A stretch of 64,000 nt of DNA, taken from Saprolegnia diclina VS20 (Eukaryota > Oomycota > Saprolegniomycetes > Saprolegniales > Saprolegniaceae). This document shows positions 922-7,786 of the stretch, in pieces (position 1 is the stretch's first letter; each line of letters opens with the position of its first letter). The position numbers and the translations under genes are program-made. The notes under the pieces are model-generated. The model was not told the origin of the DNA and ran no database searches. It was given only the letters and a program-made list of their open reading frames with translations. The DNA is taken from positions 41,872 to 105,871 of the forward strand of contig NW_008246081.1 in assembly GCF_000281045.1 (NCBI RefSeq), in the 5' to 3' direction.

Positions 922-1330
922 CGCGCGGTATGAGCGGTTTCGCATGCAACTGATCCGGTTCACACAACCGGCTCGGTCCAACCGGTTTGCATCAATCAGG
1001 GGTAGGTGAGCCGGGTTGAACGTTCGGCACGAATCTTTGGTATTTAAAAAACGGTACCACACAGGACATACAATTAGCTAGCTTAAATCTGCCACAATGG
1101 ATTAAAATACGCACTAGTCACTACATGCGTCAGTTGCGCACCACCTCACATTGGGTGGCGGGGACACAGAACGCCCGCTGATTGGCCAAGACTTAAATCG
1201 ACGAACCAATCGTGTCGCGAGGCGTCCCTTCGATTTTTTGATTGGGATGCACTTTTGAATTTGCTCCAAGCTGCACAAGGTACCGTGATGCATTCGATGC
1301 AGTAGGAAGGGTAGTGAGAGATAGACTTTG
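922..1330. other. Intergenic region, shared promoter area
   Basis: This stretch lies between the divergent small gene and the THI5 leader. No coding potential was seen. It holds inverted CCAAT boxes (ATTGG around 1179) and a CCAAT at about 1206, and an A/T-rich patch at 1040-1110. A CCGGTT-rich inverted repeat at about 950-990 looks superficially like the P4/P5 part of a TPP aptamer, but the rest of the aptamer is absent. Confidence 0.5.
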
Positions 1331-1452
1331 AGCTGCGGGGGGTGCCTGCGGAGTGTCGTCCCATGCGAACGCATGACTATGGCGATCATTCCAGGGCTGA
1401 GATTATACCCTTTACACCTGATCCGGTTCGTACCGGCGGAGGGACAGCAGCT
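1331..1452 (+). promoter_or_regulatory. TPP riboswitch aptamer 1 (THI element)
   Basis: All conserved blocks of the thiamine pyrophosphate aptamer occur in order. P1 is a perfect 6-bp helix (1331-1336 with 1447-1452). GGGGTGC lies at 1339-1345, then an extended P3 arm with a 6-bp hairpin (1362-1367/1370-1375), the pyrimidine-sensing CTGAGAT at 1397-1403, ATACCC closing P2 at 1405-1410, ACCTGATC at 1416-1423, the P5 stem CCGG/CCGG (1423-1426/1433-1436), and GCGGAGGGA at 1436-1444. The long P3 is usual for eukaryotic TPP riboswitches. The element sits in the 5' leader of the THI5 gene, about 270 nt upstream of its ATG. Its arm contains several ATG triplets that would act as upstream starts if the leader is not spliced. 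Confidence 0.93.
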
Positions 1453-1473
1453 CCGAGAAGTGAATATGTTAAC

Positions 1474-1596
1474 CAGCGAGGGGTGCTTGTGGAGTGTCGT
1501 CCCAGAGAGACTGTCTTTGTGGGTATGGCGATCATTCCAGGGCTGAGATCATACCCTTTCTACCTGATCCGGTTCGTACCGGCGGAGGGACTGCTG
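1474..1596 (+). promoter_or_regulatory. TPP riboswitch aptamer 2 (tandem copy)
   Basis: A second complete aptamer begins 21 nt after the first. P1 is shorter (1474-1477 with 1593-1596). GGGGTGC lies at 1480-1486, CTGAGAT at 1543-1549, ATACCC at 1551-1556, ACCTGATC at 1562-1569, the CCGG/CCGG P5 stem at 1569-1572/1579-1582, and GCGGAGGGA at 1582-1590. The ligand-binding core is nearly identical to copy 1, while the tip of P3 differs (1501-1525), so the pair is an older duplication with both cores apparently kept under selection. Tandem aptamers could give a sharper dose response. This inference rests on known bacterial tandem TPP riboswitches. Confidence 0.93.
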
Positions 1597-1656
1597 TGTA
1601 CTAAAAGAGTGAGAGCTAATATGTATGTGTGCTCGCCCCCAGATCCAACCCACGAC

Positions 1657-1716
1657 GTACGTACTACGCGTATCGTGTGGTGTGCGCTAACCGCGGCGAT
1701 GTGTTGATACTTGCAG
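1657..1716 (+). promoter_or_regulatory. Probable 5'-leader intron of the THI5 gene
   Basis: A 5' splice site GTACGT at 1657, a branch-like GCTAAC at 1686-1691 and a 3' site TTGCAG ending at 1716 define a 60-nt intron eight bases before ATG 1724. The 3' site is probably shared by alternative 5' sites further upstream. In fungi, TPP riboswitches control thiamine genes by choosing between 5' splice sites in just this arrangement. The CGTAC of the P5 region in both aptamers (1429-1433, 1575-1579) is complementary to GTACG at this 5' site. Confidence 0.6.
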
Positions 1717-1723
1717 GACCACC

Positions 1724-2770
1724 ATGGCCCCCAGCGCTCCGCTCAAGAAGACCACGTTCCTCCTCAACTGGTACGCCAACCCGTACCACACGCCCATCTT
1801 CGTCGCCAAGAAGCGCGGCTTTTACGAAGAAGAAGGCATCGACCTCGCCATCATGGAGACGACCAACCCCAGCGACGTGACTGAGATCGTCGGCTCGGGC
1901 GCCGCCGACATGGGCCTCAAGGCGATGATCCACATCCTCGCCGCCAAGGATCGTGGCATCAACATTACGTCCATGGGTGCGCTCCTCGACGAGCCCCCGA
2001 CCGGCCTCATCTTCAAGGCCAGCCTCGGCATCACCAAGTTCACCGACATCGTCGGGAAGCGCGTCGGCTACATCGGCCACTTTGGCAAGATCATGATCGA
2101 CGACTTGGCCAAGCAGGCCGGCCTCGCGCCGGACAGCTACACCACCGTGCGCGTCGGCATGAACGTGACGGACGCCATCATGCGCGGCGTCATCGACACG
2201 GGCATCGGCTTCACCAACTTCCAGCGCCTCGAGCTCGAGGAGCTCACGGGCGAGCCGGCGGGCATGCTGCGCATCGACGAGTGCAACGGTCTCGGCTGCT
2301 GCTGCTTCTGCTCTGTCATGTTTGTCGCGAGCGACGCGTACTTCCAGAAGAACAAGGACACGGTCGCGGCCTTTCTGCGCGCGACGCGCCGCGCGATGGA
2401 CATCGTGATCGAGTACCCGGACGTCGCGTGGGAGGACATGTGCATCATGAACCCGCGCCTCCGCTCCACCAAGCGCATGGTCAACGTCGAGGTCGAGGTC
2501 GACGGCAAGAAGGCCACTGCGCGCGTCGAGACGGGCAGCGACGTCTACGAGAAGATCTACCAGCGCACGCTGCCGTACTTTTCGCGCACGCTCCTCAACG
2601 TCGAGCGCGACTGGGCCAAGGTCGGCGACTTCTGCAAGTACCTCCACGTGCTCGAGAACGAGGTCGACCAGCACACGGTCTACTCGAACGAGCTCGTGCC
2701 CGCCATGGGCAAGGCGTCCGTCGAGCCGCTCACGCCGGGTGGCGTCCTCGGCCTCGTCTCGCAGCAGTAA
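1724..2770 (+). CDS. THI5: THI5/NMT1-type HMP-P synthase (thiamine pyrimidine)
   Basis: A single-exon, 348-residue protein of the THI5/NMT1 family. Known members make 4-amino-5-hydroxymethyl-2-methylpyrimidine phosphate from their own active-site histidine and bound PLP, using iron and oxygen, a single-turnover reaction. The hallmarks are present: LLNWYANPYHTP near the start, GLKAMIH with the PLP lysine (K66) and donor histidine (H70), LLDEPPTG, the GYIGHFGK loop, GMNV, and the cysteine cluster CCCFC at residues 192-196. A short insertion is visible near residues 255-275. The ATG at 1724 sits in ACCACCATGG, directly after the leader intron, and the upstream leader carries two TPP riboswitches, so expression should fall when thiamine is ample. 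The family is best known from fungi; horizontal origin is possible but untested. Confidence 0.93.
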   Translation: MAPSAPLKKTTFLLNWYANPYHTPIFVAKKRGFYEEEGIDLAIMETTNPSDVTEIVGSGAADMGLKAMIHILAAKDRGINITSMGALLDEPPTGLIFKASLGITKFTDIVGKRVGYIGHFGKIMIDDLAKQAGLAPDSYTTVRVGMNVTDAIMRGVIDTGIGFTNFQRLELEELTGEPAGMLRIDECNGLGCCCFCSVMFVASDAYFQKNKDTVAAFLRATRRAMDIVIEYPDVAWEDMCIMNPRLRSTKRMVNVEVEVDGKKATARVETGSDVYEKIYQRTLPYFSRTLLNVERDWAKVGDFCKYLHVLENEVDQHTVYSNELVPAMGKASVEPLTPGGVLGLVSQQ

Positions 2771-2999: not shown

Positions 3000-3973
3000 T
3001 CAGCTTTTGGCTCGCTTCGGTTCTTGTGTCTTTTGTGTGGCGTCGCGGGCGCGCTTGTTCCTTGCTGCAGCTTTGGCGCCGAGCCCCGTCGTCGCTGTGA
3101 GGTTGTAGTAGTTTCCAGGAGCATCGTGTTGCGGCGTCGCCCCTGCGGCGTTTGTTTGAGCCCCTGCAAGCACAAGGCCTTGGAGAGATGTCTTCAAGTC
3201 GGCGCACGACTCGCACATGGCCGTACTCGTATGCTTGATGCGCTCCTGGATGTACTGGTATCGCGCGCACTTGGCGTGGCGGAGACGATGGCGTGAGTCC
3301 ACCGAGACGTTGCCCAGCTGAAAAAAGCGAAAGAAGCGTTGCACGTCGTCGAGGCCGACGTCGGAGCTGACGAGCCCGGGGCACGCGATAAAGACCTTGC
3401 CTCTGTGCGAAATACCGCCGCCATCAAAGGCGATCATGTGCAGGTCGACTTCAATGGCGAACATCTCGAGCTCTTGCAGTAGTAGCACTGTTCGGCGCCG
3501 ATCGTCTTCAAGGTCGTTGAGAGCGGCGATTTGAAGGGCGTCTAAAACGTGCTTCACTTGCTCTGTGATGCACACCTTCCGTCTCTCGATCGGATCCATA
3601 GCGCCCATCATGTACAGTGGGGATCTCAACGGCCCGTCCTTCCACTTGGCGAGAACGCGCTTGTAGTTGTGCGCGGCCTGCTCGCACGGCTGGCACCGTT
3701 TGGTCGTGGTACCCAGTGGCAGCAGGATGGGGCATCCGATCGGCCGCACGCCGTTGTGCGAATAGGCGTAGCGCTCGTGGTAACGCAGCTCGTGTGCGCC
3801 CTCCGGCAGCCCCGGGCACGGCAGCAGCGCAGCGGTGTCGGCGGGTCTCATCAAGGCCGTCTCCGAGGCCTCCTTCCGCATGGCATCGTAGCATTTCTTG
3901 CACAAACCGCCGCTGCGCAGCGCGCGCGCGCCTCTCGATTGCACCGGCTGCACCGTGGCGATGGCTTCGCCAT
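3000..3973 (-). CDS. Cys-rich unknown protein, probable zinc ribbon, possible frameshift
   Basis: The main open frame (3953-3000) gives 317 residues with no recognised family. It has scattered CxxC pairs (CKKC, CQPC, CESC) and a Lys/Arg-rich tail ending KRAKS, suggesting a nuclear nucleic-acid-binding protein. It has no ATG at its own upstream end. An ATG at 3973 opens another frame reading MAKPSPRCSRCNREARA, which supplies a CxxC pair but runs into a stop. The two frames meet in a GC dinucleotide run at about 3920-3930. Removing one GC unit would join them into a CxxC-x12-CxxC zinc ribbon. Either the assembly has a slippage error, the allele is broken, or there is an unseen upstream exon. 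Confidence 0.55.
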
Positions 3974-4520: not shown

Positions 4521-5440
4521 ATGGGCAAGACCTCGGCAGACAACCGCGTACGTGGCTGCGCTTGGTGTTGCCGCGCTCATGGCTCGTAGGACATCTTCTA
4601 CCGCAAGGCCAAGGAGGTCGGCTTCCGCGCCCGCTCGGCCTTCAAGCTCATGCAGCTCGACGACCAGTTCAACCTCTTCCAGAGTGCGTCCTTCTTCTGC
4701 CTCGTCGCGCAACCTCTCACGCTTGCTTGCAGACGTGGAACGCGCCGTCGACTTGTGCGCCGCACCGGGCAGCTGGAGTCAAGTGCTGAGCCGAAAGCTC
4801 TATGAAAACCGGTCGATCCCGAACATTGAGGCCATCTCGCACGCGGACGCGGCCGAGCAGACGCAGATCCGCGTCGTGTCGGTGGACTTGCAAGAGATGG
4901 CGCCGATTCCCGGCGTCGCTACCATCCAAGGCGACATCACGTCGACCAAGACGGCGGAGCAGATCATCGCATACTTTCACGGGCAAAAGTATGCGTCGAT
5001 CTATGAATCGTAGTCTGAGCACCGTGTGTAGGGCCGACATTGTCGTGTGCGACGGCGCGCCGGACGTGACGGGCGTCCATGACATTGACGAGTACGTCCA
5101 GTCGGAGCTCCTTCTCGCGGCGCTCAACATTACGACGTTCGTGCTTTCGCCGGGCGGCAGCTTCGTGGCCAAGATCTTCCGCTGCAAGCACTACGAGTTC
5201 CTCGCGGCGCAGCTCAGCCTTTTCTTTGCCGAGGTGACGTGCGCCAAGCCGCAGTCGAGTCGCGCGTCCAGCAACGAACACTTTGTCGTGTGCCGCGGGT
5301 TTCAGTTGCCGCCGGGCTACACGCCCGTGATGACGTCGCCGCTGCTGCCGCAGTACGGCCAGCCCAGCGAGATGAAGCGTGATCCCGAGCTCATCTCGTT
5401 CTTGGCGTGCGGCGACCTGAGCAGCTACGACGAAGAGTAG
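4521..5440 (+). CDS. TRM7: tRNA 2'-O-methyltransferase TRM7/FTSJ1
   Basis: Four exons (4521-4547, 4590-4683, 4733-4988, 5032-5440) give 261 residues. This is an RrmJ/FtsJ-fold SAM-dependent methyltransferase. In yeast and human, TRM7/FTSJ1 methylates the ribose at positions 32 and 34 of the anticodon loop of some tRNAs, with partner proteins. The N-terminus [18 protein letters not shown] is followed by [10 protein letters not shown], which carries the first K of the K-D-K-E tetrad, then the SAM-binding [15 protein letters not shown], the acidic strand [11 protein letters not shown], and FVAKIFR with the second lysine. The length and the GAPDVTG motif favour TRM7 over the longer rRNA enzyme SPB1 or the mitochondrial MRM2. 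All three introns are 42-49 nt. Confidence 0.9.
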
Positions 5441-5574: not shown

Positions 5575-6711
5575 CTAAGGGAACGTGGGCATGAGCTCGA
5601 CGGGCTTGCACGCCGGTGCTTCGCTAAAGTACTCGTGTTGGAGCGCATCGGCGGCCGAGATACGCTGGTTTGGGTCGAGCGTCAAGAGCCGCTGCATCAA
5701 GTCAAACCCGGCGTTCGAGAGCGCGCTCTGACCGTACGTGAGGCTCGCGACAGGGAACTTCTCGCGCAGCACCGACCGCTTCGGGCCCTTCCACTTGACG
5801 TTGGCGACGTTTGGGAGGTCCGTGACACCCGGCCAGTTTTCTTCAGTCGGCGGCCCGAGGAGCTTAAATATTTGGTCGAGCTGGTCAATCTCGCCGCGCC
5901 CCATGAGGAGCGGCTTCATCAAGACAAGCTCTGCGAAGATGCACCCGACAGACCACATGTCTACCGCAGTCGAGTACGACGACGTGCCAAGGAGGAGCTC
6001 TGGTGCGCGGTACCACAGCGTCACGACGAGGAGCGTGTAGTTGCGGATCGGCGACCCGTACTTTCTGGCCATGCCAAAGTCGCAGACCTTAAGGACGCCG
6101 TCGTCGTAGAGCAAGTTGCTGCTCTTGAGGTCGCGGTGAATGTACCACTTGCCGTGCATGTAGGCCATGGCCGAGAGGAGCTGGCGCAGCAGCGTCTTGA
6201 TCTCAGACTGCAGGAACGGGTGGTTCTCGGCCTTCTTCTTCTCGAGCACGTGCTTCAAGTCCTTCGTCGCGTAGTCCATGACCATGTAGATCTTGTCGGG
6301 CGTCGACCCGACCACCATCTCGCGCATGCGCACGATATTCGGGTGGTCAAGCGCGAGGAGGATGTTGGTTTCCCGCAGCGCCGTCACCGGAAAGCCTTCC
6401 CGGCACATGTCCACGGTCATCTTGACCTGCTTGAGCGCTACGATGTCGCCCGTCGCCTTGTCCCGCGCCTTGGACACGACGCCGTACGTGCCTTCGTCGA
6501 TCTTGCCGATGCGCGCGTAGTTGTCGACGCCCCGACAGCGCGGCCGGCCCTTGGTCGCCCGCCGACCAGCGTCCGACGTCACGGCGTCGACTGCTGGCGC
6601 TACGTCGCTGGACTTGATCTCCTTGACGTCGACCTCGGTCTCGCGCCTGCTTCCCGCCCGGCGGTCGCTCTTGTCGTCCTCGTCGTCGCTGCTCCAGCGA
6701 TTGCGCTTCAT
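5575..6711 (-). CDS. CDK11: Cyclin-dependent kinase 11 (PITSLRE-type)
   Basis: A single-exon, 378-residue Ser/Thr kinase. CDK11 with cyclin L acts in transcription and pre-mRNA splicing. The kinase domain fills about residues 65-360: glycine loop IDEGTYGVV, ALKQVKM lysine, the alphaC motif GFPVTALRE (PITSLRE in animals), the catalytic loop HRDLKSSNLL, DFG, and the T-loop NYTLLVVTLWYRAPE. The GVDNYARIGKIDEGTYG lead-in is also typical of CDK11. The first 60 residues are a short charged region rather than the long RE-rich extension of animal CDK11. The start is the ATG at 6711 (MKRNRWSSDDEDD); no ATG lies further upstream in frame. Confidence 0.9.
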   Translation of the reverse strand: MKRNRWSSDDEDDKSDRRAGSRRETEVDVKEIKSSDVAPAVDAVTSDAGRRATKGRPRCRGVDNYARIGKIDEGTYGVVSKARDKATGDIVALKQVKMTVDMCREGFPVTALRETNILLALDHPNIVRMREMVVGSTPDKIYMVMDYATKDLKHVLEKKKAENHPFLQSEIKTLLRQLLSAMAYMHGKWYIHRDLKSSNLLYDDGVLKVCDFGMARKYGSPIRNYTLLVVTLWYRAPELLLGTSSYSTAVDMWSVGCIFAELVLMKPLLMGRGEIDQLDQIFKLLGPPTEENWPGVTDLPNVANVKWKGPKRSVLREKFPVASLTYGQSALSNAGFDLMQRLLTLDPNQRISAADALQHEYFSEAPACKPVELMPTFP

Positions 6712-7786
6712 GATGGGCGACCCAATCCTTTGAAATGCGATCGAATCCAACAAAATCAGTTTTCAGAGGCATTTGGATTCGGCATGCATGCCGAATGTAG
6801 CACCCGTGAAAGCGGCCGAAGGGTTGAAGCTGACCGGATGCAGCTCTCGGCAACAGCCACCTGCGAGCTTTATGGCGGGCTCTCAAGACGGGAACCGCTT
6901 CACAGGATTTGGTGAGCAGTCAGTAGACTGTATGAAGACACCAAGTCTCGGACGCGACAGGAGACGAAATCGTGTGGCAGTGCAGGCCGTCGGACGAACA
7001 TGCGATTGGCCTTTGCTGCACCGCGATAGACTTGCATTCATGAGCTCGTCATGCAAACGAACGCATACCGGCCGCAACGAGCAACTCAGCTGCGGCGGTG
7101 CTTCCAACACCATCAACGTAGCGGTAGCAAGCGTCTGGCGTCACCTGGCAGAGACGGTCCCTGCTTGAGCACAACCGCGCGATCGGGATCTGGGCGCGAG
7201 GGATCGGTGAAGTCATGGCGGTGAAAAGTGGTACGACAGGGATCTTGTGCATGCTTTCGCAAGGCAGTTCTTATTTGACCAAGTCACGCCCGTGGCTGTC
7301 CCTTGTCATAGCGACGAGGCTGCCAATCAAGGCGCGGGAAAGAGACGCCGACAGGAATAATGACCAATCCCGCGGCGTGGATCCTGATGTGGCCAATCAG
7401 CGCGCGATCTTTTGGGAAATGACCTCCTTACGTGGCAGCCACGGCGGCGATGACAGGTGACCTGGCCACCCACTTGACCTTGCCGTTTGTATTGAACTTG
7501 GGACTTTCAACAAAGTGGCCCGGATGATGGCACCCGCGCTGCTGTTTACAAATCGCTCGTCACACTCCGCGCGGTTTGTTGCATATACACACGCACCGAA
7601 TAAAAAGCGTCGCAAGTCGAATTCAAGCGTATGCAATACAATTCATCCATTTAATTCATTGTCAGAGGTTTCTCAGGCTCGCGATCGCGCCTGTTGAACG
7701 CTCCATGTGGCGCCATATTCAAAGAAAGAGGTTGCGGCGACCTCGGTGGAAAGGCCCACTTGTCAATTTTTGAGACCGAGACTGCG
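6712..7786. other. 1.07-kb intergenic region
   Basis: This separates CDK11 and acetoacetyl-CoA synthetase, which are transcribed away from each other. Short open frames are present but none has domain-like composition or supporting splice structure. It holds several CCAAT boxes (about 7324, 7360, 7393), consistent with a bidirectional promoter. No tRNA, repeat or transposon remnant was recognised. Confidence 0.4.

Follow-up and report, generated by a model that had tools for sequence, protein, structure and literature searches.

A survey of 17 oomycete genomes (Mukherjee et al. 2018, Sci Rep, PMC5882874) describes, in the portion of the article available, the NMT1 gene of Saprolegnia as carrying two TPP aptamers within 5'UTR introns, which cluster in a tree and one of which plausibly arose by duplication; their mechanism could not be inferred. 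The tandem arrangement is already known for the genus Saprolegnia, and an earlier reading of the present DNA from its letters alone (the sequence-only reading), which held that no tandem pair had been described in an oomycete, was mistaken on this point. The locus analysed here, in the leader of THI5/NMT1 of Saprolegnia diclina VS20, agrees with the 2018 pair in genus, gene, aptamer number, 5'UTR location and proposed duplication, and no difference from the available description was found, the match being at the level of the genus. The same article provides the closest fungal parallel, the Type I arrangement, in which a donor, a short uORF, a second donor and the aptamer are followed by an acceptor just before the main ATG. 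As in the Type I switch of Neurospora crassa NMT1, the Saprolegnia leader has aptamer sequence in a 5' leader intron, a short uORF flanked by two sites that are candidate donors, and an acceptor preceding the main ATG, but it contains two aptamers in place of one, and a donor-side element is predicted to pair with the second copy across the folded first copy.

Tandem TPP riboswitches of bacteria (PMC9481103, available part) likewise have a thiamine gene preceded by a series of two TPP aptamers, but there each riboswitch makes its own terminator decision, whereas in Saprolegnia the two would share a splicing decision. Among eukaryotes, Micromonas clade D is reported to have more than one TPP riboswitch per gene (PMC4260697, in part), but these lie in both UTRs, at opposite ends of the gene, in contrast to the side-by-side Saprolegnia pair. 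No further eukaryotic tandem was found in the accessible text of two bacterial surveys and a riboswitch-discovery review (PMC9481103, PMC12452182, PMC10043782) or of a yeast study (PMC5997356). Same-ligand tandem sensing is well described in bacteria and hardly in eukaryotes, and the Saprolegnia THI5 leader offers a natural eukaryotic case. The computed anatomy presented here adds to the 2018 report and makes the mechanism testable with respect to the donor used, the pairing of an upstream element that we call alpha, and the need for each copy.

We searched the window, that is, the whole 64,000-nucleotide stretch of DNA analysed, on both strands with the 4227 covariance models of Rfam 15 at gathering thresholds. 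Exactly two matches were returned, both to the TPP family RF00059 on the forward strand and both full length (model positions 1-105; Table 1). The gathering score of this family is 54.3, which copy 1 exceeds by 2.0 bits and copy 2 by 4.3 bits, so that the covariance-model check called for by the sequence-only reading came out in its favour for both copies. That reading had also listed the conserved TPP blocks as present in order in each copy, and its list was correct: GGGGTGC starts at 1339 in copy 1 and 1480 in copy 2, CTGAGAT at 1397 and 1543, ATACCC at 1405 and 1551, ACCTGATCCGG at 1416 and 1562, and ACCGGCGG at 1432 and 1578, and GCGGAGGGA was likewise found in the sequence of both. Both copies contain the CUGAGA and GCG blocks, named the pyrimidine-binding and pyrophosphate-binding blocks respectively (PMC9544697, available sections), and folding of each copy by itself yields the helices P1-P5, of which P3 is long. 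By sequence and computed structure both copies are real TPP aptamers, for which binding of the ligand is predicted.

Table 1. Features of the THI5 leader and gene, and of the THI4 aptamer elsewhere in the assembly (window positions unless a contig is named)
Feature	Position	Strand	Basis or description
Candidate upstream donor S1	1280-1285	+	AAG/GTACCG; by eye from GT list
Five-codon uORF MHSMQ*	1288-1305	+	Sequence
Element alpha	1302-1313	+	GUAGGAAGGGUA; complement of 1552-1563 in the copy 2 core, with 12 pairs including one G-U
Candidate donors S2, downstream of uORF	1311 (GTAGTG), 1314 (GTGAGA); span 1311-1319	+	By eye
TPP aptamer copy 1	1328-1462	+	RF00059, 56.3 bits, E 2.3e-8; limits are those of the Rfam match
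TPP aptamer copy 2	1469-1608	+	RF00059, 58.6 bits, E 6.5e-9; limits are those of the Rfam match
Copy 2 strand from the 3' side of P2 through J2/4 into P4	1552-1563	+	Partner of alpha in ligand-free folds
60-base intron GTACGT...TTGCAG	1657-1716	+	Implied by SDRG_05281 gene model; annotated start ATG 1625
THI5/NMT1 coding sequence, 348 aa from main ATG	1724-2770	+	PF09084, 222.9 bits
Third TPP aptamer, upstream of THI4	C45:233088-233237	-	RF00059, 56.6 bits

In both copies L5 is a UUCGUA loop, where the alignment to the Rfam model has uUAAUa, a block that the sequence-only reading had not listed. The L5 UAAU is called conserved in the available text of PMC5882874 and is absent from both Saprolegnia copies; it is no required feature, since bacterial UCGU loops exist. 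A P4-P5 pattern, in which some of the loop letters are prescribed, was present in 84 of the 299 genomes examined from one bacterial phylum, and UCGU stood in L5 in four of the 105 bacterial matches listed (counted by hand), one of which equals the Saprolegnia copies over all 29 bases. Docking of P3 with L5 is described as important for tight TPP binding (PMC4775224, in part). We considered the odd L5 as a sign that the copies are degenerate, a reading weakened by the naturally occurring bacterial UCGU loops; to judge by sequence, L5 of both copies is unusual but natural.

The open reading frame directly downstream of both aptamers has a single match, to itself, in the 54.15-Mb assembly, and is 100% identical over 348 residues to SDRG_05281 of S. 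diclina VS20. Next among the best 120 of 1216 protein matches were proteins of Aphanomyces cochlioides (88%), a further protein (87%) and one of Pythium insidiosum (73%). The closest named proteins among the matches listed thus come from Saprolegnia, Aphanomyces and Pythium, in agreement with the oomycete origin proposed for this DNA, and the Rfam, PF09084 and protein comparisons together bear out the claim that two intact TPP aptamers stand in the leader of an oomycete thiamine pyrimidine synthase gene. Positions 1625-1656 joined to 1717-2770 reproduce the 361 residues of SDRG_05281 letter for letter, which implies the 60-base intron just downstream of copy 2.

Upstream of the aptamers the uORF lies between the candidate donors S1 and S2, and the acceptor ending at 1716 falls just before the main ATG. 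This acceptor agrees with the database protein, while S1 and S2 are non-consensus candidates picked by eye; donor strength was judged in the same way because a crude intron survey of the genome, made for a donor model, gave no enriched hexamer. We folded the leader from 1251, a putative start chosen for the initiator-like CACTTTT there. In a transcript beginning there, a 1279/1717 junction would leave the main ATG as the sole AUG, whereas a junction from 1311 or 1314 would keep the complete uORF; a retained leader would also keep seven AUGs between 1306 and 1656, the last of them the annotated start.

This layout suggests that splicing of the THI5 pre-mRNA is probably controlled by TPP in the OFF direction, as one would expect of a gene for biosynthesis. 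Where TPP is scarce, copy 2 would be open and its P2/J2-4/P4 strand would pair with alpha beside S2, with copy 1, stable on its own, inside the loop so formed; splicing from S1 at 1280 to 1716 would then remove the uORF and both aptamers and leave no AUG before the main one. Where TPP is bound, copy 2 would fold and alpha would be released, S2 (1311/1314) or the donor at 1657 would be used, and either the uORF or the AUG-rich aptamer region would stay in the mRNA, so that translation of THI5 would drop. Taken as a whole, the best explanation of the locus, and a fairly likely one, is that the aptamer pair controls THI5 splicing and reduces THI5 output under ample TPP. The alpha:copy 2 step of this splicing model is its more tentative part, less likely than not to be correct.

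The pairing was examined in four stretches (1251-1735, 1251-1620, 1270-1600 and 1200-1800) as secondary structure, without ligand or tertiary contacts. In the ligand-free folds of all four, alpha pairs with its copy 2 partner strand while copy 1 stays intact inside the loop, at mean pair probabilities of 0.67, 0.96, 0.96 and 0.93 respectively, and in all four the pairing falls to 0.00 once copy 2 is forced into the aptamer fold. Pairing of alpha with copy 1 is 0.00-0.02 in every state. Forcing the aptamer fold costs 0.9 to 1.2 kcal/mol for copy 1 and 5.0 to 11.7 kcal/mol for copy 2, and copy 2 would therefore be the one that must rearrange and the likely switch. At the donors, the effect of forcing copy 2 was mixed: it raised the unpaired probability of the GU at 1311 from 0.01-0.06 to 0.11-0.18; that of the GU at 1314 went from 0.33 to 0.34, 0.39, 0.20 and 0.13 in the four stretches, and S1 became more open in two of them and slightly more closed in the other two. 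The clearest gain was at 1302, from 0.00-0.12 to 0.39-0.77, and splicing from a donor there would join the uORF to THI5 in the same reading frame.

As a control, the 77 upstream bases were shuffled 2000 times and compared with either the 49-base core or the whole of each copy. Against the copy 2 core, the 12 contiguous pairs were reached by 10 of the 2000 shuffles and the duplex energy by one; against the whole of copy 2 these figures were 199 and 1602. The longest run with copy 1, eight pairs, was reached by 856 shuffles for the core and 1770 for the whole copy, and its duplex energy by 80 and 1828, so that no partner of its own was found for copy 1 in the 77 upstream bases. When 400 whole leaders were folded with the upstream part shuffled, the observed pairing of the copy 2 core was reached in nine, while copy 2 P2 did not exceed the observed value of 0.12 in 91 of them, nor P4 its value of 0.37 in 272, which implies that other partners, too, easily cause copy 2 to misfold. 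Support for masking by alpha:copy 2 pairing in these models is modest.

It is possible, though on balance unlikely, that only one aptamer regulates, the second copy being a duplication remnant that the intron tolerates. Between P2 and the core, 94 of 108 ungapped aligned positions are identical in the two copies, with five gap columns, as would suit a leftover; the likeness stops where the aptamers end, the best local alignment pairing 1335-1448 with 1476-1594, which fits an origin of one aptamer by local duplication, itself part of the preferred reading. The absence of any engagement of copy 1 by alpha, noted above, and the single aptamer of THI4 point the same way. On the other side, both copies retain their core blocks and closing helices, although the P1 letters differ between them and the P3 tips, each still a hairpin, differ in letters and length; moreover, the pair was reported for the genus in 2018 (PMC5882874, in the part available). 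The sequence-only reading had taken the differing P3 tips to imply selection on both copies. Changes of letters in P1 and P3 with the helices kept do fit constraint on both, but the argument is weak, as a duplication of no great age also predicts near-identical cores.

The THI4 aptamer was found in a search of the assembly in which 49 of 838 first-look candidates were scored with Rfam, and the total of at least three TPP matches (the window pair and one elsewhere) is for that reason a lower bound. A core pattern allowing up to three mismatches found the same three places, all of them without mismatch. The gene downstream is THI4 (PF01946, 348.5 bits, main exon); its single aptamer, at 4592-4741 on the reverse strand of locus L004, has a long and different P3 and the L5 loop GUAAAA, and is preceded by a short uORF, MRSR. 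Copy 2 and the THI4 aptamer have P1 letters in common, while copies 1 and 2 have P3 stem letters in common. The THI4 leader was examined for the same masking, and no such masking was seen. Just upstream of THI4 and on the same strand is an MFS transporter gene (PF07690, 152 bits; locus L004, 5487-6740, reverse strand), before which there was no TPP match among the 49 of 838 candidates scored.

An alternative to control by the pair through one splicing decision, likewise unlikely, is that the two aptamers act independently on separate outputs (copy 1, for instance, on the upstream donors, and copy 2 on the donor downstream at 1657), so that the response would be steeper though the copies do not communicate, like the pseudo-cooperative tandems of bacteria. 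Coupling calculated from the forced-fold free energies was +4.7, +0.1, -0.1 and +1.0 kcal/mol in the four stretches (positive being unfavourable), that is, near zero in three of the four, as independent action would have it, and bacterial tandem TPP riboswitches are so described in the available parts of PMC9481103 and PMC2258182. The outputs required are less apparent: the GU of donor 1657 is unpaired at 0.14-0.19, about the same in all four states, and copy 1 lacks a separate partner, its best run of eight pairs being the one that 856 of 2000 core shuffles reach. The same energies give no support to the cooperative sensing that had been suggested, since in these secondary structures, computed without ligand or tertiary contacts, no positive coupling appeared in any of the four stretches.

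Within the preferred reading, control of THI5 splicing by the pair, a specific and rather doubtful form would be a nested two-aptamer splice switch, in which the upstream element masks a donor by pairing with the distal aptamer's core, with the proximal aptamer folded in the loop, so that two sensors serve one decision. No description of such a switch was found in the literature searched, as far as its text was available; if true, it would give eukaryotes a tandem for one ligand in which both aptamers share a single platform. That the aptamers are intact in structure while THI5 is not under thiamine control is improbable: diatom genes with predicted TPP aptamers were unresponsive to thiamine, and mutation of the THIC aptamer left regulation of thiamine synthesis intact (PMC9544697, in part), but those aptamers lie in 3'UTRs, in contrast to the Saprolegnia pair, whose 5' leader has a usable acceptor and which thus stands where the fungal splice switches do, and an aptamer of the same kind also precedes THI4. 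The diatom result does mean that prediction alone is no proof of regulation in stramenopiles.

A search of prokaryote genomes with THI5 for the pair gave 50 loci, none titled as oomycete, and one of viral contigs gave none; among plasmids, the leader matched a single record, over 51 bases. THI5-like genes, 46-55% identical where the match is full length, are present in Legionella, Endozoicomonas, Chlamydiae and other bacteria, and many of the carriers are bacteria of eukaryotic hosts; one explanation may be transfer of such genes between these bacteria and their hosts. A THI5 piece at 6001-6561 of locus L051, on a contig titled as a Pseudomonadota MAG, is 65% identical to the Saprolegnia THI5 and closer to it than the other bacterial ones; this contig is possibly a eukaryotic contaminant. 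Of the genes neighbouring THI5 in the window, the open reading frame at 3000-3953 on the reverse strand (317 aa) had no Pfam match, and the only relative found beside the window-encoded protein was S. parasitica SPRG_14874, at 45% identity. A protein kinase gene (PF00069, 218.5 bits) lies at 5575-6753, also on the reverse strand.
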